Under the pieces are notes generated by a model, which was not told the DNA's origin, made no database searches, and was given only the letters and a program-made list of their open reading frames with translations. Shown piece by piece: positions 10,669 through 57,200 of a stretch of 64,000 nucleotides of DNA (its first letter is position 1; the number at the start of each line of letters is the position of its first letter). A program made the position numbers and the translations under genes. Source of the stretch: Henckelia pumila (taxonomy: Eukaryota > Streptophyta > Magnoliopsida > Lamiales > Gesneriaceae). The DNA lies in the NCBI RefSeq assembly GCF_033568475.1, contig NC_133120.1:91840151-91904150 (forward strand), in the 5' to 3' direction.

Positions 10669-11175
10669 ACAACTTGATGATGGATGTCGTTCGTTGAATA
10701 ATATGAGCCCAACCTATTGTAATTGGTTAAGTACTCTATGTCCATATTCACTGAATCTTTTCAATATTAATTATTTTTTATTAAATACAAATTAGTTAAG
10801 CAGTAACATCTGCGTGTATATTATATATGTTTTTAGTTACGTGATAATTAACAACTAGAGAAAACAAGTAAAAGAACCATACAATTGAGATTTGCGGGTC
10901 ACCGTTGTTTTGTTTTGTTTTGTTTTATTTTATTTTATTTTTTTATAATGTAACGCTGTAACATCTATTCTCCATATTTAAGAAAATAAGGCTTTTGTGG
11001 AATTTCTTGGTCCCAAAATTTCACATGTTAAATTGCTCTTCAGCAACAAATATCATTAATATCCGTTTGATAGTGAAAATGAAGGGTCGTTCACTATATA
11101 CTATTAGTAGTATTCGAAAACTTTCGTCCATATCTTATGTCGTAACAAAATTTCCGATATTGAAAAAATTATATC
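10669..11175. repeat. Local duplicated segment, copy B (interrupted)
   Basis: The first block of copy A reappears at 10669-10715 and the second at about 11082-11175, separated by about 370 extra bases. The match is then broken at ATATC by the first copia element and resumes after it (19732 onward, ATATCGATATTGTACTGAAA). The duplication therefore predates the copia insertion. Confidence 0.65.
10909..10943. repeat. TTTTG/TTTTA pentanucleotide microsatellite
   Basis: Three to four TTTTG units run into TTTTA units and a T-run. Ordinary slippage DNA inside the copy B spacer. Confidence 0.8.
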
Positions 11176-11469
11176 TGTTGAAAATATATTATTTTATTAT
11201 TGTTGAATATTGAATGTTGAATATTTAGTTGTAAAATGTTGAAAATTAGTGTGTGTGATATAGATGATGATATATTAATTTTTTGACTAATCTCGAATGT
11301 GGATCTATAAATAGGTCTTTATTTGTGATGAATAACACAATTGAATTGAGAGAGAAAAATATTGTGAAGTACTGTAGAGTTTGATATATTTTGAGTTTTG
11401 AAGAGTTAGATATATTTTGAGTTTTGAAATTTTTACTTTTTACCATAAATTTTTACTTTTTCACAACAC
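11176..11469 (+). repeat. 5' LTR of copia copy 1
   Basis: 294 bp, against 265 bp for the 3' LTR. Most of the excess is a short tandem duplication of a GATATATTTTGAGTTTTGAA block. A TATA box, CTATAAATA, lies at 11305-11313. Apart from that the two LTRs differ at only a handful of positions, so the insertion is fairly young. The sequence directly after the LTR (CGTTATCAGCACGATCGC) should hold the primer site; the tRNA was not identified. Confidence 0.92.
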
Positions 11470-11589
11470 GTTATCAGCACGATCGCTCGAAAGTTCTCTA
11501 TAATTTCCGACGCTCCAAAACACAAAGAGAAGACAAAAATATTCAACAAGTAAGTATATTTATTTTATTGTTTATATATTTTTTTATGT

Positions 11590-12190
11590 ATATATATTAA
11601 TATATAATTTCATGTTATTATATAAAAGGTTGTCTATGACACCGACCTTATAATAACGTGATATGATATATATTTATTATGTATATATAATAATTGGATT
11701 AATATATAATTTAATGTTATTATATAAAAGGTTGTCTATGACACCGACCTTATAATAACGTGATATGATATATATTTATTATTTATATATACTAACTATA
11801 TTAATATATAATTTCATGTTATTATATAAAAGGTTGTCTATGAAACCGACATTATAATAACGTGATATGATATATATTTATTATATATATATACTAACTG
11901 TATTAATATATAATTTCATGTTATTATATAAAAGGCTGTCTATGACACTGACCTTATAATAACGTGATATGATATATATTTATTATGTATATATACTAAT
12001 TGTATTAATATATAATTTCATGTTATTATATAAAAGGTTGTCTATGACACTAACCTTATAATAACGTGATATGATATATATTATTGTGTATTTATATACT
12101 AATCATATTCGTATAATCTCATATTATTATATAAAAGGCTGTCCATGACACCGTCCTTATGATAATGTGATATGATATACATAATTATTT
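11590..12190 (+). repeat. Six tandem ~102-bp hairpin units in the copia leader
   Basis: The marker AAAAGG recurs at 11624, 11726, 11828, 11930, 12032 and 12133, a period of 102, 102, 102, 102 and 101. Each unit holds a left arm CATGTTATTATA, then AAAGGT, GTCTATGAC and ACC, then a right arm TATAATAACGTG. The arms pair, AGGT pairs with ACCT, and GTC/GAC pair around TAT. Units are joined by AT-rich spacers. The array sits between LTR and gag and has no long open frame, so it is untranslated leader RNA. Confidence 0.88.
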
Positions 12191-12595
12191 AATTATGATT
12201 ATCATTATACATTGCATCATTATCATAAATTTTTATTCAACACATACTCGTTTTTTCTTACCACCAACGGTCACAAACGGTAACAAAACGGCTAGTTTTT
12301 TGTCTATAAATATGTTCACTCAAGCTCATTTTCAATCACACCAAAATTCACTATTTCTCTCAAAATATTTTCTCCCCGATTTTTTTCGAAGATGAAGATG
12401 ATGGCATTTCTAAGCTATTTTTCATAACGATTATGATCAACATTCTCACGAGTCTTGTACTCACCAGCGATTTTCCACCACATACTTTTTCTCTATTTGT
12501 ATACGCACTTGTAATCTTCGTTCTTCCATTATTTTGTATTGTCATATTAATGGAAATTAACTAATAAAATGCATTGTTATTTTTCTAGTACCACC

Positions 12596-13624
12596 ATGTC
12601 AAATTTGGAAAAGATTGAATTCGTTGCGCTCGATATCACTGAAAAAAATTATATGACATGGACTCTCGATGTGGAGATGCATCTTGAGTCATTGGGTCTA
12701 AGTGATACCATCAAAGAAAATAATATATCATCCTCACAAGAAAAAACAAAGTCTATGATTTTCTTACGTAGACATCTTGATGAAGGATTGAAATATGAGT
12801 ATCTCACAGAAAAAGACCCAATGATTTTATGGAAAAAGCTGAAGGAAAGATTTGAGCATATAAGGGAAGTTATACTCCCGACCGCCCGTGATGAATGGAA
12901 TACGTTGAGATTCCAAGACTTTAAAAAAGTCAGTGATTACAATTCTGCGATGTATCGAATAGTCTCGCAATTGAAATTTTGTGGGCATGTTGTTACTGAA
13001 ATGGAAATGCTTAAAAAAACATTTTCCACATTCCACGCATCAAATATAACTCTACAATAACAGTATAGAGTGCGTGGATTTTCAAGATATTCTGAACTAA
13101 TCGCATGTCTTCTTGTGGCGGAAAAGAACAACGAATTGTTAGTAAAAAATCATCAATCTCGATCCACTGGATCAACGACATTTCCAAAAGCAAATGTCGT
13201 AATTAAAAATGAAAACCAAAATCAAAGGCATAGACCAGATTTTGGTCATGGACGATGTCGAGGACGTGGGCGTGGACGTGGACGTGGACGTAAAAATGAT
13301 CGCGGTCGTGGTCGCGGCCGTGGATATGAAAATAATCGAGATAGTTACTTCAATAACTCATCTCAAAAGAACGTCACGAACCACCCACCAAAAAGGCAGC
13401 ATAAAAATACGAGTGAAAATGAACATCACTCAAAAAGATCTGAGAGTATTTGTTATAGATGTGGCACTCCAGGACATTGGTCACATATTTGTCGAACCTC
13501 TGAGCACCTATGTAAGCTCTACAAAGAATCAACAAAGGGCAAAGGAAAAGAGACCAATTTTGTTAAAAACAGTAACCATTCAAGTGGTTCAACTCATTTC
13601 GATGCTGCTGATTTTTTCAAATGA
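12596..13624 (+). pseudogene. copia copy 1 gag (nucleocapsid), one internal stop
   Basis: Starts at ATG 12596 (MSNLEKIEF). The N-terminal part matches the copia gag fold (YMTWTLDVEMHL, LWKKLKERF). A Gly/Arg-rich stretch (about 13255-13330) precedes the zinc knuckle CYRCGTPGHWSHIC (13450-13491), which binds RNA. TAA at 13058-13060 interrupts an otherwise open frame and most likely arose from CAA. The frame ends at TGA 13622. Acts in virus-like particle assembly when intact. Confidence 0.88.
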
Positions 13625-13758: not shown

Positions 13759-16700
13759 ATGGAAAATGCTATGAGCAAAGATAAACCCATGAAAGTTTGC
13801 ATACCCGATAGTGGTATAACGCACACCATTCTTCGAGATAAAAGATATTTCTTGGAATTAAAACCAACAAAAAACAATGGTGAATACAATATCAGGTCCT
13901 GTAGACTTGATTGAAGGTTGTGAAAAACACATTTTTTGTTACCTAATGGTACAAAATTTTTGATAAATGATGCTTTATATTCACCAGGATCAAAAAGAAA
14001 TTTGTTGAGTTTTAATGACATATATTCTCATGGGTATGATACTGAGATGATAACTGATGGAAATCATAAATATATGTGTCTTACCACATATAAATCAAGA
14101 AAGAAATATGTGGTTGAAAAATTATCAATGCTCCCTACTGGATTGCATTATACACATATAAGGCCAATCGAATCAAATGTGGTGGTTAATAGTTCTTCAA
14201 TATTAACCAATTGACATGATCGATTGGGACATCCTGTTTCAATAATGATGCGAAGATTTATTGAAAATATACATGGTCATCCATTGAAAGACCAGAAGAT
14301 CTTTCAGAATAATAAGTTTTAATGTAAAACATGTTCTCTTGGAAAACTTATTATAAGATCATCGTCAGCTAAAATCCAAACAGAATCACCCATATTTCTT
14401 GAACGTATTCAAGGTGATATTTGTGAGCCAATTCATCCACCATGTGGACCATTTCGATATTTTATGGTATTGATAGATGCCTCTAGAAGATGGTCACATG
14501 TATGCTTATTGTCAACTTGGAATGTGGCATTTGCAAGATTAATGGCTCAAATAATAAAATTGTGGAATCAATTTCCCAATTATACAATCAAGAAAATAAA
14601 TCTTGATAATGCTGGAAAATTTACTTCTCAAACTTTCAATGACTATTGTATATCAAAGTGAATTAATGTTGAACATCTTGTTGCTCATGTTCATACACAC
14701 AATGAATTAGCTGAATCATTGATTAAACGTCTACAACTGATTGCTAGACCAATTATTATGAGAACAAAACTCGCTATTTCTATATGGAGACATGCAATAT
14801 TACATGCTGCGACATTAATTCGCATCAGACCAAGTGCATATTATAAATTCTCCCCATTGCAGCTTGCATTTGGTAAAGAACCAAATATTTCTCATCTGAG
14901 AATTTTTGGATGTATGGTGTATGTGCCTATTGCACCACCTCAACGATCAAAAATGGATCCTCAAAGAAAAATCGGTATTTATATCGGTTATGATAGCCCA
15001 TCAATCATTCGATATCTTGAGCCTTAGACAGGCGATGTGTTTACAACACGTTTTGCTGATTGTCATTTTAATGAAGAAATCTTCCCAATGTTAGGGGGAG
15101 AAAAGAAACACATCGAAAAATAAATCATATGGTATGTACCATCATTATTACATTTGGATCCAAGGACCAAACAATGTGAGAAAGATATACAGCAAATTGT
15201 GCACTTGCAAAGAATTGCAAATCAAATGCCATATGCATTTGCAGACACAAAATGGGTAACAAAATCATATATATATGATGTAAATGCCCCTGCTCGAATT
15301 GAAATTCCAAAGAAACAAATTGAAGACACTCATGATGTCATAAAACGCTTGAAGCGTGGAAGGTCAGTCGGTTCCAAGGATAAAAATCCTCGAAAAAGAA
15401 AAGGCATAGAGAAACATGATGATCATAAAATAGAAAATGGTGTTCCAAAAGAAACACCTGATGATGAAAATGTTCTGTCAGAACCACAAAATGACAAGAA
15501 TTGTGAAATCTCTATCAATTATATTAATACTGGAAAAATATGGAACCGAAAAGATATAGAAGATATTGATGAGATATTTTCATATAATGTGGCATGTGAC
15601 ATCATAAATGAAAATGAGGATCATGAACCAAAATCTTTTAGTGAATGTAAAACTCGTCATGATTGGGCCAAATGGAAAGATGTCATCCAGGTTGAATTGG
15701 ATTCACTAAATAAACGCAATGTTTTTAGACCTATAGTCCTCACACCTGAAGGTGTAAAACCTGTTGGATACAAATGAGTTTTTATTTGTAACGCCCAGAA
15801 TTATTTAATTTTAATCCGAGAATATTTAATTTGGAAATATTTCGAGTTTTGATTTAACTTCTAATATTTTTAAATTATTTAGGATTGAAATTGAATTTAA
15901 TGTTTGGTTGAGGACCGAATTGCAAAGAAGCAATAATTGGAGGACTAAAGTGTAAATATTAGAAATTGGTTGGACACTTGTCTTGCAAAGGAGTTTGAAC
16001 GTGTATGCTCCTATTCTCAATCAGATAAATCAGAGGAAGAACCGAGAGAACAATAACAAATAATCTCAAGTCTATTTTCAATTTCAAATCTTTATAACTC
16101 AAGAACCGGTTATCCGATTTCAGTTTCGGGCACGGTTTTGGAATCCTCGCAACGAGATCTACAAAAGGATGTAAGTATTTTGATGTTTCTATCAAGTTTT
16201 GAAATCATGTTTATGCAGAATTCAGAATTTAGTCATGGTTTAGTGATCTTGAGATGATATACGATATCGTATCGGAATCGATTCAAAGATTGGATAGTGT
16301 TTGGGTGTGTGGTATTTTCCAGCTTGTATTCGATTTCTTCAGCTCAGGATATGATGATCATGATGATATGTTGCTGGTTATGAGAGGTGTAGATGATGTA
16401 TATGCTTGGTAGTTGATAGCTTTGTGATTGCGGTTTCCGAATCGACGCCGTTACGCCGCCGAACTTAGTAATTAAGACTGTTTTACTATCTTATGCTTGA
16501 GATGCTATTGATATGAGTTAAAGTTGATGTTCCGTGGTAAAATGCTGTGATTTCAGTTTACAAACAAGAGAAGTCAACTCTAGAATCCCGACTTCGAAAC
16601 CGGTAGAAGAAGAACAAGGTTTGAAGTTAGTCTCCAATAGAGTTTGTTTGGTTTGAAATGCAGATTGTGGGACAAAGCTTATGGTTGTTTATTGTACAGA

Positions 16701-19301
16701 TTGGATAGCTTGAAATCACCTCAAACATCACAATCGAAAGGTAAAAGTGGACTATTATTTGAATGGGATTACAACTCGAGCTGGTTTGTATCGAGTTCCT
16801 TAAGTCACATATTTATTTGTTTACTTGCTCTTATGTGAATCATTGAATGAATTTATGATGTTAATGAATGCTATATTGATGTTATATGTGCATTCATCTT
16901 GTGAGACTTATTTCTTGAATTTTGAAATGAACGAAAACGTTCGATTAGACGATTTGAGGGATTATATATGTATGGCCTGGGTGGTTAATTTAGCCTAGTG
17001 TCTGATTTGCATATATAGTGGCTTCAAAGTCTAGAGAAGTAAGGTAAGTAGCCCCACCTCGATTGGGAGTGTCGGTGGATCAGTTACGATATCTTCTTCT
17101 CGGAATCCCAATCGATGAAATGAGAAAAGTCTTGAGAAAAGCCTATTTTAAATCATGCATTGTCTTTGTTTGATATCAGGAGTTTGATATTTATGACATG
17201 ATTTTCATGTTAGTTGCTTTTACTGGGAAATACGTTTCTTACCGGAGTTATCCGGCTGTTGTTGTGTTGTATGTGTGCATGGCAACAGGTGGTTCAGGAA
17301 CAGGGCAAAGACGGGCTTAAAGAATCGAGACGTGAGAGTTTAGTGTGATGATCCGGAGTAGATTAGAAGTTGCTGTCATACTATGTTGTTTTCAAGGAAC
17401 ATGATGGAATAGAACTTAGATTTGAACTTTAGTCTAGAGTGTTGCTACTTTATCTTGTATCACACTTGAACTAGTTATGCTACTTCTACTTTGAGATGTT
17501 GGAATAAACTTGTTAATGACTTTTATATCATGTTTGTTGCATCCATGACTTGGTAGAGTTGGTAGATGGATTATGGAAGCATGGTACAGCAACAATTCTA
17601 AAATTTTTAGCAGATGACAGAACTCAGCTCGCTCGAGCGGAGCCCGAGGCTCGCTCGAGCGAGCCAAAGGAGGGGGTCTTGGACTCGAGAGGTCCGCGCT
17701 CGAGCGAGGGGTGTGGCTCGCTCGAGCGAGCCTCCTTGGCTAAATTTTTTTTTTTATTTCTTTTGATTTTGGCTTTGATGCTTGGCCTTAATTCATGAAC
17801 CTTAGATTATTATTTGATTTGAGAGATTAAGAACCGGGTCGTCACATTATTCGAAAGCGAAATGAGAAAAATGAAATAGTAAGATATAAAGCTAGACTTG
17901 TTGCACAAGGTTTTTCTCAAAGGCCTGGAATTGATTATGAAGAAACGTATTCTCCTGTTATGGATGCAATTACGTTTTGATATTTGATTAGTTTGACAGT
18001 GTCTGAAAATTTGGAAATGTGTCTTATGGATGTTGTTACAGCTTACTTATACGGATCACTTGATAGTGATATATACATGAAAATCCCTGAAGGATTTAAG
18101 ATGCCTAAAGCACAAAGATCAAAACCCAGAGAATTTTATTCTGTAAAATTGCAAAGATCATTATATGGGTTGAAGCAATCCGGTCGAATGTGGTATAATT
18201 GGCTAAGTGAGCACTTGATGAAAAAGGGATATGTAAATGATCAAATTTGCCCTTGTGTTTTCATCAAGAAAACAACATCCAGATGTGTAATTATTGATGT
18301 ATATGTTGATGATTTAAACATCATTGGAACAAATAAAAAAATTCAAGAAGTTATGATGTACTTGAAGGAAGAATTCGAAATGAAGGATCTTGGAAAAACC
18401 AAGTACTGTTTGGGTTTGCAAAATCGAACAAAAAGAATGTGAAATTTTTGTTCACCAAGCAAATTATACAGAAAAGATCCTTAAACGTTTTAATATGGAT
18501 AAATCAAATCCATTAAGTACTCCAATGGTTGTAAGATCATTAAACATAGAAAATGATTCATTCCGTCCATGTGAAGATGATGAAGTTATTCTTGGTCCAG
18601 AAGTACCATATCTAAGTGTCATTGGTGCCCTTATGTATCTTGCAAATTGCACTAGACCTGATATATCTTTTGGTGTAAATTTATTGGCAAGATTCAGTTC
18701 ATATCCAACAAAGAGGCACTGGAACGGAATTAAACATATATTTCGCTATCTACGAGGAACGACAGATTTGAGACTTTTGTACTCAAAAGACACCAATCAA
18801 AGTATCATTGGTTATGCTGATGCTGGATATTTATCTGATCCACATAAGACACGTTCCCAAATCGGATATGTATTTACTCGTGGAGGCACCACAATTTCTT
18901 GGCGTTCACAGAAACAAACACTCGTAACAACTTCATCAAATCACGTTGAGATTATTGCGCTACATGAAGCAAGCCATGAATGTGTTTGGATAAAATCAAT
19001 GGCACTACATATCCAAATTTCTTGTGGATTATCAGTAGACAAGAAGCCTGTGACGCTGTATGAAGATAATGCTGCATGTATTACTCAAATGAAAGAAGGA
19101 TACATCAAAAGTGACAGAACCAAACATATCCCCCCAAAGTTCTTTGCCTACACTCAAGAACTTGAGAAGAACAAAGATATTGATATCTGTTACATTCAAT
19201 TAAGTGAAAACTCATCAGATCTCTTCACAAAGGCACTTCCTACGATAATATTCAGAAATCATATATATAACATTGGGATGCGCAATCTACGGAATATGTG
19301 A
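13759..19301 (+). pseudogene. copia copy 1 pol (protease, integrase, RT, RNase H), broken
   Basis: Protease begins near 13759 with DSGITHTIL, where copy 2 has the catalytic DSGTT. An extra base near 13870 shifts the frame. Integrase follows from about 14215 (HDRLGHP zinc-binding start, then the DDE core), with stops at 14212, 14320 and others. RT begins before 15777 (GYK then TGA), is split by the solo LTR 15789-17846, and resumes with the first RT block, MDVVTAYLYG and YVDDL (about 17850-18440). RNase H is complete to 19301 (SDLFTKALP). Most stops replace Gln, Arg or Trp codons by C-to-T or G-to-A changes. Confidence 0.9.
15789..17846 (+). mobile_element. Solo LTR A (Ty3-gypsy type) nested in copia RT
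   Basis: 2,058 bp beginning TGTAACGCCC and ending GGTCGTCACA, flanked by TTATT (15784-15788 and 17847-17851). Copia copy 2 shows the empty site, where the reading runs on without interruption. There is no primer site or coding region, so only the LTR remains, as after LTR-LTR recombination. Near its 3' end (17627-17735) it has repeated palindromes GCTCGCTCGAGCGAGC. It resembles solo LTR C in its first 150 bases and in the CCGGAGTTATCCGGCTGTTG region. Confidence 0.9.
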
Positions 19302-19466: not shown

Positions 19467-19731
19467 TGTTGAAAATATATTATTTTATTATTGTTGAATA
19501 TTGAATGTTGAATATTGAGTTGTAAAATGTTGAAAATTAGTGTGTGATGATGTAGATGATGATATATTAATTTTTTAACTAATCTCAAATATGGATCTAT
19601 AAATAGGTCTTTATTTGTGATGAATAACACAATTGAATTGAGAGAGGAAAATATTGTGAAGTGTAGAGTTTGATATATTTTGATTTTTGAAGTTTTTAAT
19701 TTTTATTATAAATTTTTACTTTTTCACAACA
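19467..19731 (+). repeat. 3' LTR of copia copy 1
   Basis: 265 bp from TGTTGAAAAT to CACAACA, directly after the polypurine tract, followed by the target duplication ATATC. Confidence 0.93.
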
Positions 19732-22186: not shown

Positions 22187-22191
22187 TTAAA

Positions 22192-22458
22192 TGTTGAAAA
22201 TATATTATTTTATTGTTGTTGAATATTGAATGTGGAATATTGAGTTGTAAAATGTTGAAAATTAGTGTGTGATGATGTAGATGATGATATATTAATTTTT
22301 GAACTAATCTCAAATGTATGTGGGTCTATAAATAGGTCTTAATTTATGATGAAAAATACAATTGAATTGAGAGAAAAATATTATAAAGTGTAGAGTTTGA
22401 TATATTTTGAGTTTTGGAGTTTTTACTTTTTACCATAAATTTTTACTTTTTCACAACA
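22192..22458 (+). repeat. 5' LTR of copia copy 2
   Basis: 267 bp, TGTTGAAAAT to CACAACA, with CTATAAATA serving as TATA box near 22327. It lacks the short internal duplication present in the 5' LTR of copy 1. The primer-site region after it is identical to copy 1 over the first 18 bases. Confidence 0.92.
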
Positions 22459-22569
22459 CGTTATCAGCACGATCGCTCGAATATTCTCTATAATTTCCGA
22501 CGCTCCAAAACACAAAGAGAAGACAAAAATATTAAACAAGTAAGTATATTTATTTTATTGTTTATATAT

Positions 22570-23080
22570 TTTTTATGTATATATATTAATATATAATCTC
22601 ATTGTATTATATAAAAGGCTGTCTATGACACCGACCTTATAATAACGTGATATTATATATATTTATTATGTATATATACTAACTATATTAATATATAATT
22701 TTATTTTATTATATAAAAGACTGTCTATGACACCGACCTTATAATAACGTGATATGATATATATTTATTATGTATATATACTAACTGTATTAATATATAA
22801 TTTCATGTTATTATATAAAAGGTTGTCTATGAAACTGACCTTATAATAACGTGATATGATATATATTTATTATGTATATATACTAACTGTATTAATATAT
22901 AATTTCATGTTATTATATAAAAGGTTGTCTTTGACACTGACCTTATAATAACGTGATATGATATATATTATTGTGTATTATATACTAATCATATTCGTAT
23001 AATCTCATATTATTATATAAAAGGATATCTATGACATCGAACTTATAATAATGTGATATGATATACATAATTATTTAATT
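22570..23080 (+). repeat. Five tandem ~102-bp hairpin units in the leader of copy 2
   Basis: The marker AAAAG[G/A] occurs at 22613, 22715, 22817, 22919 and 23019, periods 102, 102, 102 and 100. The last unit has the same arm variant (CATATTATTATA paired with TATAATAATGTG) as the last unit of copy 1, so the two arrays are aligned at their 3' ends and differ by one unit. Confidence 0.87.
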
Positions 23081-23370
23081 ATGATTATCATTATATGCAT
23101 CACATGATTATCACAAATTTTTATTCAACACATAATCATTTTTTTCTTACCCCCAACGGTCACAAACGGTAACAAAACGGCTAGTTTTTTGCCTATAAAT
23201 ATGTTCACTCAAACTCATTTTCAATCACACCAAAATTCACTATTTCTCTCAAAATATTTTCTCCTCGGTTTTTTTAAACATACTTGTACTCATTGTTTAT
23301 CTATTATTTTGTATTGTCATATTAATGAAAATTAACTTATAAAATGCATTGTTATTTTTCTAGTACCACC

Positions 23371-23897
23371 ATGTCAAATTTGGCAAAGCTTAAATTTGTT
23401 GCTCTCGATATCACTGGAAAAGAACAAAGAATTGTTAATGAGAAATCATAAATCCCGACCCAATGTATCTACGGCATTTCCAGAAGCAAATGTCGTAAGT
23501 AAAAATGAAAACCAAAATCAAAGACATAAACTAGATTTTGGTTGAGGTCGAGGATGTGGTCATGAACGTGGACGTAGAAATGATCGCGGTCGTGGTCACG
23601 GCCGTGAATATGAAAATAATCGAGATAGTTATTTCAATAACTAATCTCAAAAGAACGTCACGAACCGCCCAAAAAGACAACATGAAAATATGAGTGAAAA
23701 TAAAAATCACTCAAAAGGATATGAGAGTACTTGGTATAAATGTGGCACTCCAAGACATTGGTCACGTATCCCCTGAGCACTTATGTAAGCTCTTTAAAGT
23801 ATCGATAAAGGGGAAAGAAAAAGAGACCAATTTTGTTGAAAATAGTAACCATTTAAGTGGTTCAACTTATTTCAATGCTGCCGATTTTTTCAAATGA
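23371..23897 (+). pseudogene. copia copy 2 gag remnant with ~480-bp deletion
   Basis: The start ATG and first 17 or so codons (MSNLAKLKFVALDIT) are kept, then the sequence jumps from CACTG to GGAAAAGAACAA. In copy 1 these points are about 478 bases apart. The remainder has several stops, and the zinc knuckle is damaged: a Trp or Arg is changed and the last Cys is lost by a short deletion after GHWSR. No function expected. Confidence 0.85.
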
Positions 23898-24031: not shown

Positions 24032-27000
24032 ATGAAAAATGCTATGAGCAAAGATAAACCCATGAAAGTTTGCATACCCGATAGTGGTACAACGCACACC
24101 ATTCTCCGAGATAAAAGATATTTCTTGGAATTAAAACCAACAAAAATAATGGTGAATATAATATCAGGTCCTGTAGACTTGATTGAAGGTTGTGGAAAAA
24201 CACATTTTTTGTTACCTAATGGTACAAAATTTTTGATAAATGATGTTTTATATTCACCAGGATCAAAAGGAAATTTGTTGAGTTTTAATGACATATATTC
24301 TCATGGGTATGATACTGAGACGATAACTGATGGAAATTAGAAATATATGTGTCTTACCACATATAAATCAGGAAAGAAATATGTGGTTGAAAAATTATCA
24401 ATGCTCCCTACTGGATTGCATTATACACATATAAGGTCAATCGAATCAAATGTGGTGGTTAATAGTTCTTCAATATTAACCAATTGACATGATTGATTGG
24501 GACATCCTGTTTCAATAATGATGCGAAGAATTATTGAAAATACACATGGTCATCAATTGAAAGACCAGAAGATCTTTCAGAATAATAAGTTTCAATGTAA
24601 AGCATGTTCTCTTGGAAAACTTATTATAAGACCATCGCCAGCTAAAATCCAAACAGAATCACCCATATTTTTTGAACGTATTCAGGGTGATATTTGTGGG
24701 CCAATTCATTCATCATGTGGACCATTTCGATATTTTATGGTATTGATCGATGCCTCCAGCAGATGGTCACATGTATGCTTATTGTCAACTCGGAATGTGG
24801 AATTTGCAAGAATAATGACTCAAATAATAAAATTGTGGAATCAATTTTCCGATTATACAATCAAGAAAATAGGACTTGATAATGCTGGAGAACTTACTTC
24901 CCAAACTTTCAATGACTATTGTATGTCAATGGAAATTACTGTTGAACATCATGTTGTTCATGTTCATACACAAAATGGATTAGCTGAATCATTGATTAAA
25001 CGTCTACAACTGATTGCTAGACCAATGATTATGAGAACAAAACTCCCTATTTCTATATGGGAACATGCAATTTTACATGATGCGGTATTAATTCGCATCA
25101 GACCAAGTGCATATCATAAATTCTCCCCATTGCAGCTTGCATTTGGTATAGAACCAAATATTTCTCATCTGAGAATTTTTGGATGTATGGTGTATGTGCC
25201 TATTGCACCACCTCAATGATCAAAAATGGGTCTCAAAGAAAAATCGGTTATTATAGCAATCGGTTATTATAGCCCATCAATCATTCGATATCTTGAGTCT
25301 CAAACAGGAGATGTGTTTACAACACGTTTTGCTGATTGTTATTTTAATGAAAAAATCTTTCCAGTGTTAGGGGGAGAAAAGAAACACATCGAAAAAGAAA
25401 TCACATGTTATGTACCATCATTGTTACATTTGGATCCAAGGACCAAACAATGTGAGAAAGATGTACAGCAAATTGTGCACTTGCAAAGAATTGCAAATCA
25501 AATACCAGATGCATTTGCAGACACAAAAGGGGTAACAAAATCATATATACATGTTGTAAATGCCCCTGCTCGAATTGAAATTCCAAAGAAACAAATTGAA
25601 GACACTCATGATGTCATAAAAGGCTTGAAGCATGGAAGGCCAGTCGGTTCCAAGGATAAAAATCCTCGAAAAAGAAAAGGCATAGAGAAACACGATGATC
25701 ATAAAATAAAAAATGGTGTTCCAGAAGAAACACCTGATGGTGAAATGTTCTGTCAGAACCACAAACTGACGAGAATCGTGAAATATCTATCAATTATATT
25801 AATACTGGAAAAATATGAAACCGAAAAGATATAGAAGATATTGATGAGATATTTTCTTATAATGTGACATGTGACATCATAAATGAAAATGAGGATCATG
25901 AACCAAAATCTTTTGGTGAATGTAAAACTCGTCATGATTGGGCCAAATGGAAAAATGTCATCCAGGTTGAATTGGATTCGCTAAATAAACGTAATATTTT
26001 TGGACCTATAGTCCTCACACCTGAAGGTGTAAAACCTGTTGGATACAAATGAGTTTTTATTCGAAAGCGAAATGAGAAAAATGAAATAGTCATATATAAA
26101 GCTAAACTTGTTGCACAAGATTTTTCTCAAAGGCCTGGAATTGATTATGAAGAAACGTATTCTCCAGTTATGGATGCAATTACGTTTCGATATTTAATTA
26201 GTTTGGCAGTATCCGAAAATTTGGAAATGTGTCTTATGGATGTTGTTACAGCTTACTTATACGGATCGCTTGATAGTGATATATACATGAAAATCCCTGA
26301 AGGATTTAAGATGTCTGAAGCACAAAATTCAAAACCCAGAGAATTTTATTCTGTAAAATTGCAAAGATCATTATATGGGTTGAAGCAATCCGGCCGAATG
26401 TGGTATAATCGGCTAAGTGAGCACTTGATGAAAAAGGGATATGTAAATGATCCAATATGCCCTTGTGTTTTCATCAAGAAAACAACATCCGGATGTGTAA
26501 TTATTGCTGTATATGTTGATGATTTAAACATCAGTGGAACGAATAAAGAAATTCAAGAAGTTATGATGTACTTGAAGGAAGAATTCGAAATGAAGGATCT
26601 TGGAAAAACCAAGTATTGTCTAAGTTTGCAAATCGACTAAAAAGAATGTGGAATTTTTGTTCAGCAGGAAAATTATACAAAAAAGATCCTTAAACGTTTT
26701 AATATGGATAAATCAAATTCATTAAGTACTCCAATGGTTGTAAGATCATTAAACATAGAAAAGGATTCATTCCGTCCATGTGAAGATGATGAAGTTATTC
26801 TTGGTCCAGAAGTACCATATCTAAGTGTCATTGGTGCCCTTATGTATCTTGCAAATTGCACTAGACCTGATATATCTTTTGCTATAAATTTATTGACAAG
26901 ATTCAGTTCATATCCAACAAAGAGGCACTGAAACGGAATTAAACATATATTCCTTTATCTACGAGGAAAGGCAGATTTGAGACTTTTGTACTCAAAAGAC

Positions 27001-27673: not shown

Positions 27674-27927
27674 TGTTGAAAATATATTATTTTATTGTTG
27701 TTGAATATTGAGTTGTAAAATGTTAAAAATTAGTGTGTGATGATGTAGATGATGATATATTAATTTTTGAACTAATCTCAAATGTATGTGGATCTATAAA
27801 TAGGTCTTCATTTGTGATAAAAAAATACAATTGAGTTGAGAGAAAAATATTATAAAGTGTAGAGTTTGATATATTTTAAGTTTTAAAGTTTTTACTTTTT
27901 ATCATAAATTTTTACTTTTTCACAACA
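27674..27927 (+). repeat. 3' LTR of copia copy 2
   Basis: 254 bp from TGTTGAAAAT to CACAACA after the purine tract AAGGGGAG. It lacks a short block near its start (TGAATGT region) present in the 5' LTR. Confidence 0.92.
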
Positions 27928-54266: not shown

Positions 54267-57200
54267 TTACAACTCAATCATGTCAAGTTCACCACGCAAA
54301 CGAATAAAAGTATTTTCATCTAGTGGTTTTGTAAAAATATCGGCAATTTGATTTTTTGTGTCAACATATTGAAGTTCAACTTCATTTTGTTCGATGTGGT
54401 CACGAATAAAATGATGACGAATGTCAATATGTTTGGTGCGCGAATGTTGAATCGGATTCTTTGTAAGACATATGGCGCTAGTGTTGTCACAGAAAATAGG
54501 AATTTTTGAAAAAGATACACCATAGTCAAGCAATTGATGCTTCATCCAAAGAATTTGCGCACAACAACTACCGGCAGTCATATATTCGGCTTCGATCGTT
54601 GACAACGCAACACAATTTTTTTTCTTTAAAAACCAAGAAACTAAACAATTAGAAAGAAGCAAGTTCAACTAGTGATTTTCCTGTCCACCTTATATCCACC
54701 AAAGTCGGCATCACAGTACGCTTTTAAATCAAAGAAAGAATTTTTCGAATACCACAAGCCGAGATTTGGAGTATTTGAAAGATATTTGAAAATGCGTTTT
54801 AAGGCGAACAAATGCGATTCCTTTGGACATGATTGAAATCGTGCACACAAGCAAACACTAAAGATAATGTCCGGTCTACTAGCAGTAGCATAAAGTAAGG
54901 AGCCAATCATACTACGAAAGGAAGATTGATCTACAGATTTACCATTTTCATCCTTGTCGAGTCTGATTGCTGTGCTCATTGGTGTAGATGATGATTTTGT
55001 GTTCTCCATCCCAAACTTCTTTAGAATCTCCTTGATGTATTTGCTTTGGTTCACAAAGAACCCATCCTTGCACTGTTTGATTTGCAATCCGAGGAAATAG
55101 TTAAGTTCCCCCATCATGCTTATCTCAAAGTGTTCCTGCATAAGCTTGGAGAAATATTGACAGAGAGTTTCGTTAGTAGAACCAAAAATTATGTCATCAA
55201 CATAAATTTGCACAATCAATAAATCTTCTTTGACATTTTTGGTAAATAAGGTAATGTCAATCTTTTCTCTCGAAAAACCATTTGAGAGAAGGAAAATTGA
55301 TAGTTTTTTATACCAAGCTCTAGAGCTTGTTTCAAACCATACAAAGCTTTGTTTAATCTATATACATGATCAGGCAATAATGCATCAACAAAGCCATCAG
55401 GTTGTTCAATGTACACTTTCTCTTTTAATTCACCATTCAAGAATGCACTTTTGACATCCATTTGAAATAACTTAAAATTTCTAGAGCAAGCAAAAGCAAG
55501 CAACATGCGAATAGATTCTAGTCTAGCAACAGGCGCATAAGTTTCATCATAATCTATGTCTTCTTCTTGACTATATCATTTAGCTACAAGCCTAGCTTTA
55601 TTTCTAGTGATAGTACCATGCTCGTCAAGTTTATTCCTAAAGACCCATTTAGTACCAATAATAGATCTATCATGCGGCCTAGGAACAAGATACCAAACAT
55701 CATTGCGCTTGAATTCATTTAATTCATCTTGCATAAAAATAATCCTTGAATCATCTAACAAAGCATCATCAATGCACTTAGGTTCAACATGCAAAACAAA
55801 ATCAAGATGATTGCAGATATTATTAAGTGAAGAGCAAGTGGTTACTCCCTTCGAAGGACTTCCAATAATAAGATCTATAGGATGATCTTTGTGAAGAGTC
55901 CAATCCTTCGAAAGTTGTGTTTCCTCAACATAAACATCTATTTTATTTAAGCTTGAGGAGGCCATCTCTTCTTCGAGTAATTCTACATCATCATTAGTAT
56001 TACGAGAAACTATAGACATAGTGTAAGGCCCGGGATTAATTACTATTAATCCGAATTTATTTAATTTTAATTCGAGTATATTTAATTTGGGAATATTTAG
56101 AGTTTCAATTTAAATTCTAATATTCTTAAATTATTTAGGATTGAAATTGAATTAAAATAAGGGTCGAGGACCAAATTACAAATAATGAAGAATTGAGGGG
56201 CTAAACTGCAATTATTCTTGAAGTTATCAGATTATATTGTCTAATCAGCATGTACACATGCATGATATTAGAGAATTCAGAAGTTTTAACCAGAAAGTCG
56301 AGATCTTTGTGTTCTTTTGAAATCTTGATTTTCAAATCGTCGTAACTTTTGCTCCGGTTATCCGATTTTGATTCCGTAAATTGTTCTAGAATCCTTGCGA
56401 TGAGGGCTTCGATCTCGTGTAAGTTTTATGTTGTGTTATATGGATTTCGAAATCAGTAGATGGCAGATAACAGATTTTGAGTTCTTGATTATGTATATCG
56501 ACGTTTATGCGATTCTATTGCGAAACTGGATTGATGAGTTTGTGTTATTTGTATTCAACTTTGATTCCAGCATGTATATCAATTGATATAGCTATTGAGA
56601 TTAGGTTTGGAATGATATATCAGCTGGTTTGTTGAATTGAATACACGTATAATTGGTTTTGAAGTTAGAAATGATTTCGGTATTACGTCGGTTACCGATT
56701 TTCAATCGCTACGCCGTTGAATTGAGTTTTTAGACTGTTTTGATAGCCTATATCTGAGCTGAAGTCTTTATCTAGATGTTATGAATGTTATAGTATTTTT
56801 ATTCTTCAGTTTCAGTCGAGTTTTGAAGGCCAACAATTCAAGACGCCGAGTTAAACCGAAGAAAGTTGATTGAGGTTTGAAATGCGATCGTTTGACGATC
56901 TTATGAAGTTTTCGACTCGATTTTGATACAATAGATTGGAATGAAGTTTGATATTTGTGTATTTGATATATCTTTCAGATTTGAAGAGTCCAGAATCGAT
57001 AATAACGAAGGTATAATGACGACATCGCGAAGTAGGGACTTTGAAACTCAAGAATGACTATTATTGAGTTGGCCCGCAAAAACCACATACTTGTTTATGT
57101 TTTTGATTTGATTATGATGTTGTCGATCCATATCAGGTAATGGATCTTTAGATTTGAGTTGATATGATGCTATATTGAATTGATTCTATGCCAAGGTTGC

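Follow-up and report, generated by a model that had tools for sequence, protein, structure and literature searches.

What purpose is served by a regular array of hairpins placed between the primer binding site (PBS) and the gag gene of a plant retrotransposon? The question arises from a window of 64,000 nucleotides (nt) of Henckelia pumila DNA (contig NC_133120.1, positions 91,840,151 to 91,904,150; all features given here lie on the forward strand and are numbered from the first letter of the window), in which two elements, copy 1 and copy 2, classified by their domains as decayed Ty1/copia long terminal repeat (LTR) retrotransposons, both carry such an array. A sequence-only reading of the window had described the hairpins and a covarying base pair in them, and its interpretation as a whole was partly supported by our analysis. 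What it missed is that the array lies in a spliced intron, and that the open-frame copies fetched from the genome carry in this intron a better conserved core module, which is absent from the window copies.

The array itself was confirmed in both elements by repeat finding and by folding. Tandem Repeats Finder reported a period of 102 at 11595-12179 (5.7 copies, 91% match) and at 22582-23065 (4.8 copies), which corresponds to six units of ~102 bp in copy 1 (11599-12179, with 72-nt frames at 11599, 11701, 11803, 11905, 12007 and 12108) and five units in copy 2 (22588-23065), as previously described. The unit stem is TCATGTTATTATA / TATAATAACGTGA. Compared with 200 dinucleotide shuffles each, nine of the 11 units folded with z-scores between -3.7 and -5.4 and were equalled by 0 of 200 shuffles, while three 72-nt control frames taken between the hairpins gave z -1.52, -1.04 and +0.12. 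The arms of units 1 and 2 of copy 2 had been called weak: this is true for unit 2 (z -1.29) but not for unit 1, which is stable (z -4.02); the other weak folder is unit 5 of the same copy (z -1.94). The supposed palindromic loop is actually a GTC-TAT-GAC triloop stem at the apex, and the AGGT/ACCT pairing proposed for the unit is in competition with an alternative GGT.GTC/GAC.ACC pairing. The third pair of the CATGTT..AACGTG stem is U.G in all 11 window units.

The signals around the array are those of an intron. A donor CAA|GTAAGT follows the exon that holds the PBS, and a CTAAT, a T-rich tract and CTAG|TACCACCATG stand just before the gag ATG, so that the predicted intron begins ~80 nt past the LTR and ends 7 nt short of this codon. 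In copy 1 it follows the remainder of leader exon 1 (11483..11549) and occupies 11550..12588 (GTAAGT...CTAG, 1039 nt), with the branch-point-like CTAAT, judged by the commonly known consensus, at 12561..12565, ~24 nt 5' of the acceptor; in copy 2 it occupies 22540..23363 (824 nt). In copy 1 the intron is AT-rich, with a GC content of 0.23, compared with 0.39 for exon 1 and 0.35 for gag. The exon junction 20-mer TTCAACAA|TACCACCATGTC was predicted from the donor and the acceptor (CTAG|TACC) before the genome was searched, and it was then found at 11 places exactly and at 21 with up to 2 mismatches, while the reversed-pattern control gave 3. The reading of junctions covered the 11 exact places, and in each of them the LTR end, the PBS and exon 1 are fused to gag at the predicted base, the intron and the array being missing. 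No microhomology is seen at the junction, and the 5' flanks beyond the LTR differ, by eye, among all 11 copies. Since exact joined copies exist at a junction named beforehand, the leader between PBS and gag is, on the evidence of these genomic copies, a spliceosomal intron that holds the array. The donor GT is present in 77 of 85 loci and the acceptor AG in 79 of 83, where the few misses may be misplaced boundaries, and the intron measures 708-1007 nt in 18 open-frame leaders.

The intron-less copies occur at several positions in the family: L134 near L061, L135 near L068, L125 and L127 near the L105 group, then L126, and L128-L133. The tree groups L126 with L128-L133, yet its gag start belongs to another class; L128-L133 have intron-bearing siblings, outside that tree, which are alike in exon 1 and gag start. 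Judged from these positions, spliced RNA has been reverse transcribed repeatedly into intron-less copies, with at least four losses of the intron and probably five or more. Within the subfamily of L128-L133 a T/C difference splits the intron-less copies (L129 and L133 versus L130-L132) as it splits the intron-bearing ones, which hints at repeated loss there as well, at one site only.

The leaders of relatives with long open frames were collected independently of the array. Among 25114 first-look candidates 150 reverse transcriptase (RT) matches were listed, 30 of them with an open frame of at least 1000 amino acids (one with an internal stop); 20 of these 30 (1087-1210 amino acids) were taken, the intron-less L128 being among the ten left out, and their leaders were fetched by position, blind to content. 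All 20 contain a GC-rich core module close to where the first unit stands in the window copies. The outer arms that close it, TCATGTTAT/ATAACGTGA, deviate by no more than one change per arm and are the same as those of the simple units, and its middle is a GGATGT-TAAGACG-ACATCC hairpin. In the minimum-energy folds of the 20 open-frame cores 8-9 of the 9 outer pairs are formed, and three inner arms are present in 14 cores, two in 2 and one in 4; four examples folded with z -4.2, -4.5, -6.9 and -2.6. The core was found at 733 places genome-wide (control 0), and in 20 of the 28 loci retrieved with a post-array query, 13 of these 20 having both outer arms.

Divergence was compared between eight segments (mean p-distance) in 18 loci with open frames and 13 others, these 31 being the ones, out of 48, that passed an anchor search. 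In the open-frame loci the core has the lowest value of all eight segments, 0.0075, followed by exon 1 with the PBS (0.025), the LTR (0.045, 12 loci), the promoter-like stretch (0.047), the intron start (0.048), the post-array segment (0.076), gag (0.078) and the last unit (0.090). A search against the covariance models of Rfam 15, including hammerhead ribozymes, gave 0 hits in the window and none above the gathering score in L105, which holds a core.

The simple units are more widespread and more variable in number. Each of the 88 intron-bearing loci keeps at least one, with 1 to 6 per array, and siblings with similar exon 1 and gag start carry 3, 4 or 5, so that unit number changes fast and the copy-number slippage suggested earlier is borne out. 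Open-frame leaders have 1-5 units, post-array-query loci with core 1-3, and seven of the eight such loci without core 4-5, the eighth, L103, having a deletion from the donor region into the array; the loci found with the array query hold 5-6 units, by selection. That intact members keep the array, as the sequence-only reading required, holds for 20 of 20 open-RT leaders, with at least one simple unit each, but not for the intron-less L128, which has none. In L053 seven units were counted, including two separate hairpins ~690 bp upstream of the main array, perhaps of a neighbouring element. Sequence change in the units was followed in 33 five-unit loci, which had been picked for array similarity: substitutions at A/T positions on internal branches number 0 at 55 sites in one arm, 0 at 56 in the other and 0 at 11 in the PBS, while the spacer has 10 at 188 sites, the loop 15 at 82 and the LTR 164 at 228. 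Over 167 periods and both kinds of branches the arms are slower than the spacer (P 0.0003), again in loci chosen by array similarity. Constraint on the simple units is suggested by these counts, not proven.

The covariation reported for the array did not withstand a larger sample. The change of CATGTT..AACGTG to CATATT..AATGTG is present in the last unit of both copies as described, and it was rightly counted as one event. In the 11 window units no pair other than this one (columns 16 and 59) changes on both sides, and it does so in two sequences; among 500 shuffles, 195 match it in the number of pairs, 25 in the number of cells and 23 in covariation score. Family units were taken from the host genome (885 Mb, 133 contigs), first 207 units from 40 loci and later a set from 88 loci with 331 units, 227 of them distinct, after 19 core-type or truncated matches had been removed from 350, and they were tested by our own R-scape-like procedure (tree, parsimony, substitutions re-dealt within branches). 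The 207-unit set gave no significant covariation, and over the 331 units 0 of 13 stem pairs exceed the tree-based null, although each pair is formed in 87% to 99.7% of the units; because no pair beats this null the covariation claim fails, while the hairpin itself remains. The pair in question has E about 31, and its right-hand column tracks the non-partner columns 1, 2 and 4 better (E 7.5-9.9). Its states, 206 GC, 33 GU, 86 AU and 6 unpaired, suggest a single lineage change that passed through G.U. In the core module, a G-C pair is replaced by U-A through a two-sided change (E 4.1) in L077 and L078, two loci alike in this module.

We propose, with a probability of roughly 0.55, that the intron could be a switch through which a single transcript serves as genome when unspliced and as mRNA when spliced. 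The best reading of the modules, by analogy, would be a cis-acting RNA present in the unspliced genomic RNA only, comparable to the packaging or export elements of retroviruses. The proposal is supported by the predicted junction, exact copies of which occur in several subfamilies next to relatives that keep the intron; the presence of the core in all 20 open-frame leaders fetched, its low divergence there and the stability of the simple hairpins also count in its favour. Upstream start codons, a small open reading frame (ORF) and much structure would make the unspliced leader a poor gag mRNA; splicing would remove this leader and produce a gag-pol mRNA with gag 7 nt past the junction, and the RNA which escapes splicing would keep the core and one or more simple hairpins and might be exported and packaged as genome. 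An intron would be the best place for an RNA module needed on genomic RNA but not on mRNA, and its position fits a Psi-type packaging signal, which would bind Gag and be selected into particles. The tandem hairpins might be duplicated, simplified modules, with a number that would drift through reverse transcription or recombination, and they may supplement the core or replace it; the window copies could then be old core-less derivatives retaining simple units only, copy 2 being also gag-deleted. The rarity of intron-less copies, 11 exact ones against 733 core places or 1252 first-look candidates of the post-array query (rough ratios only), fits preferential use of the unspliced RNA, other causes being possible. 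A more specific form of the proposal, in which the intron module would license export and packaging of intron-retaining RNA in a retrovirus-like manner, gag-pol would be translated from spliced RNA only and core-less lineages would compensate with more hairpins, we regard as tentative and somewhat less probable than its contrary.

Several observations weigh against the switch and the role assigned to its modules. The core is present in 0 of 40 loci found with the array query, hence many copies were made without it. Only in the young set does the strongest constraint fall on the core: in the 13 other, more decayed loci it has 0.033 and is third lowest of eight, after the intron start (0.019) and the promoter-like stretch (0.022). 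Its interior, in an alignment of 33 loci, reaches a best E of 4.1, which is not significant; this alignment was anchored on the inner arm for most rows, thus the outer left arm lay outside it and the arms were recounted separately. The absence of significant covariation in the simple units counts in the same direction. In the sample without array query (73 periods) the difference between the arms, at 0.48 substitutions per site, and spacer plus flank, at 0.83, is not significant (P 0.107). The left arm (0.82) also changes much faster than the right (0.10), an asymmetry that base pairing by itself would not produce; moreover, the CACAAC-type units of open-frame copies contain two broken pairs. 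The intron-less copies demonstrate that spliced RNA can be reverse transcribed and that the modules are not strictly needed for one round. One of them, L128, stands 3.35 kb before an RT with a 1176-amino-acid open frame, L129-L133 are 99.3-100% alike over the compared stretch, and an intron-less source may have made daughters. Finally, the splicing is read from genomic copies, and the way in which either RNA form would be exported, packaged and translated is a prediction.

Many of these points would also be expected if only the core mattered and the simple units were neutral intronic duplications, arisen by slippage or template switching and looking conserved through youth and homogenisation. 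The range of 1 to 6 units per array and of 3 to 5 among siblings, the lack of covariation in the units, the P of 0.107 for arms versus spacer and flank in the sample without array query and the two pairs that are broken in units common among open-frame copies all agree with this explanation. We nevertheless consider it possible but on the whole unlikely, as the arms have 0 internal-branch changes at 111 A/T sites versus 10 at 188 in the spacer of the 33 five-unit loci, the difference over 167 periods reaches P 0.0003 (though in loci chosen by array similarity), 88 of 88 intron-bearing loci keep at least one simple unit and seven of eight core-less post-array-query loci keep four or five. The modules might instead control splicing itself, by folding the intron, approximating or hiding its sites and setting the ratio of spliced to unspliced RNA, with no later role; their location inside the intron and their strong local structure suit such a function, which alone does not explain why the core is more conserved than the exon with the PBS, and we hold it to be improbable.

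A still smaller chance is given to the array working as DNA, that is, as promoter or enhancer elements in the leader intron. The units contain TATATAAAAGG, and behind them stand AACGG repeats with TATAAATA; most units show TATATAAAAG, and the AACGG-TATA stretch is well conserved (0.022-0.047). The U.G pair kept in all 11 window units and the structured core suit RNA better, and transcripts starting in the intron would be without PBS and R. Least credible of all is that the intron-less copies were ordinary deletions or the ancestral state, and not splicing products: deletions exist elsewhere in the family (L103), nothing in favour of this reading was found for these copies, and 11 exact matches at the GT-AG junction named beforehand, lacking microhomology and lying in different subfamilies beside intron-bearing relatives, speak against it.

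A switch of the kind preferred here has partial parallels. The packaging signal of human immunodeficiency virus (HIV) type is a structured cis-acting RNA after the 5' splice site (the major donor) and is hence carried by unspliced RNA only. The core and the hairpins would likewise be structured cis-acting RNA past a 5' splice site, with no claim of homology; HIV gag, however, is translated from unspliced RNA, whereas in this family the acceptor is placed just before gag. The comparisons that follow draw on parts of the cited papers. The constitutive transport elements (CTE) of Mason-Pfizer monkey virus and murine leukaemia virus are also structured and export intron-containing RNA (PMC4174252, PMC7551171); the gamma-CTE had little effect in one to three tandem copies and was used in four (PMC4174252, PMC7551171). 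The CTE loop is AAGACA, but the core loop is AAGACG in all 15 distinct rows shown. In a plant pararetrovirus a structured leader recruits export factors, according to a review (PMC12786077).

Among plant copia elements, barley BARE1/BARE2 has spliced and unspliced RNA pools and a Gag-less subfamily parasitic on the full one (PMC3735527), but the BARE intron is 104 nt, lies within gag and serves a Gag-only RNA, whereas the intron described here lies in the untranslated leader and leaves gag/pol intact. In EVD/ATCOPIA93 and in the shGAG splicing of Ty1/copia elements, intron retention parts mostly nuclear full-length RNA from well-translated spliced RNA (PMC8892269); there splicing is linked with premature termination and yields shGAG, and the parts of that paper at hand describe no leader intron or conserved structured module. 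As the present intron ends 7 nt before the gag ATG, it is not of the BARE/EVD type inside the gag-pol ORF. Sunflower Tyran/Varan have spliced isoforms beside unspliced genomic RNA, one short isoform being without two introns, but the short isoforms encode truncated GAG and the leader position of an intron is unstated in the portion of the source used (PMC7730604). Repeated palindromic non-coding motifs are known from copia elements of the Sirevirus group, as CGG-CCG boxes in the LTR or near ENV rather than leader hairpins, and with a tRNA-Met-type PBS (PMC2829016); the 3' untranslated region repeats of Ogre elements, which seed satellites, resemble our array as short tandem arrays on plant LTR elements and differ in belonging to Ty3/gypsy and in their hypervariable sequence, compared with one conserved unit in a 5' intron here (PMC7004042). 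A copia leader intron with a conserved structured module was not met in the portions consulted of the open-licence literature on splicing, export and motifs (PMC3735527, PMC8892269, PMC7730604, PMC12786077, PMC2829016, PMC4174252, PMC7551171), which is no claim of its absence from print. To our knowledge, the separation of genomic RNA from mRNA and the location of packaging signals are largely open in plant LTR retrotransposons. This family offers a concrete candidate: a conserved intronic RNA module occurs at hundreds of places, intron-less copies provide natural controls, and loci that have the core can be set beside loci that lack it. It is also a warning that a tandem repeat in the leader of a retrotransposon may lie within an intron.

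The PBS CGTTATCAGCACGA (11469..11482 in copy 1, 22459..22472 in copy 2) fits the anticodon arm of tRNA-Ile(AAU) in 13 of 14 bases, with a C opposite position 34, where the mature tRNA has inosine. In the genome a 20-mer was matched exactly at eight places, and the four checked were all in tRNA-Ile genes. This suggests a half-tRNA primer for the window elements; half-tRNA priming, from another tRNA, is known in Drosophila copia and yeast Ty5. The PBS shares TATCAG with the tRNA-Met-type TATCAGAGC, which adjoins the LTR in copia elements primed by initiator tRNA-Met (PMC2829016, in the part seen), but membership in that group was rejected, the match being to the tRNA-Ile(AAU) anticodon arm instead. 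Sequestration of the PBS by the right arm of the hairpin (ATAACGTG is complementary to the LTR/PBS junction CACGTTAT) was also rejected, the ensemble probability being 0.000-0.001 in 7 unspliced leaders. An ice-plant 'miRNA' TTCGTGCTGATAACGTGTTGAA (PMC4977306, in the portion available) is the complement of such a PBS plus LTR end; the same PBS followed by G and further CT was found at 0 places in the search. In IMG/VR the PBS 16-mer occurs in 35 contigs, 0 of which match five copia protein pieces (tblastn), and unit, core and RT patterns gave no match there.

Two further features lie in the intron. At 12264..12312 three AACGG and TATAAATA stand with a CA/CT-rich stretch, conserved across subfamilies, possibly an internal promoter. 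A 57-codon hydrophobic small ORF, which ends at the branch point, stays open in all 20 leaders of open-frame copies and has at least 54 codons in 70 of 86 loci; its remnant in copy 1 (12392..12565) is broken. Changes to or from stop number 0 versus 2.9 expected (P 0.047), and selection on the protein found no support, with 43 synonymous changes versus 47.3 expected on internal branches.

The remaining parts of the two elements are as follows. Profile searches found Retrotran_gag_2, a CCHC zinc knuckle, rve and RVT_2 in copies 1 and 2, with integrase preceding RT, which is the copia order; Retrotran_gag_2 (24.3 bits, curated cut-off 27) and rve (32.5 bits, cut-off 32.6) are both just below threshold, in decayed pieces. 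The LTRs have TG...CA ends (TGTTG...CAACA) and 5-bp target duplications. In copy 1 the 5' LTR (11176..11468, TATA box CTATAAATAG near 11305) is preceded by ATATC (11171-11175), gag starts at 12596 and its 5' part with Retrotran_gag_2 extends to 13060 (12596..13060), the 3' part with the CCHC knuckle is at 13070..13624, an RT fragment (RVT_2) at 17984..18442, and the 3' LTR (19467..19731, 92% to the 5' LTR) is preceded by GGGGGAG and followed by ATATC. Copy 2 consists of a 5' LTR (22192..22458, TTAAA at 22187-22191), a gag start (23371..23421), integrase (rve, 24497..25219) upstream of RT (RVT_2, 26170..26640) and a 3' LTR (27674..27927) followed by TTAAA. The counterpart of 12647-13119 of copy 1 is deleted in copy 2, as in other family members, and the resulting gag-deleted reading (..VALDIT.K.QRIVNEK and similar) recurs across several family loci, which likely form a non-autonomous lineage. 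PBS and array are retained by the gag-deleted copies, most of which were found through the array; units and core are also retained in L076 and L082, which came from the post-array query and have the gag-deleted reading. The ~2 kb at 15787-17846 of copy 1, unmatched in copy 2, are presumably a nested insertion, a piece of which (15798-15960) is 83% alike to 56053-56216.
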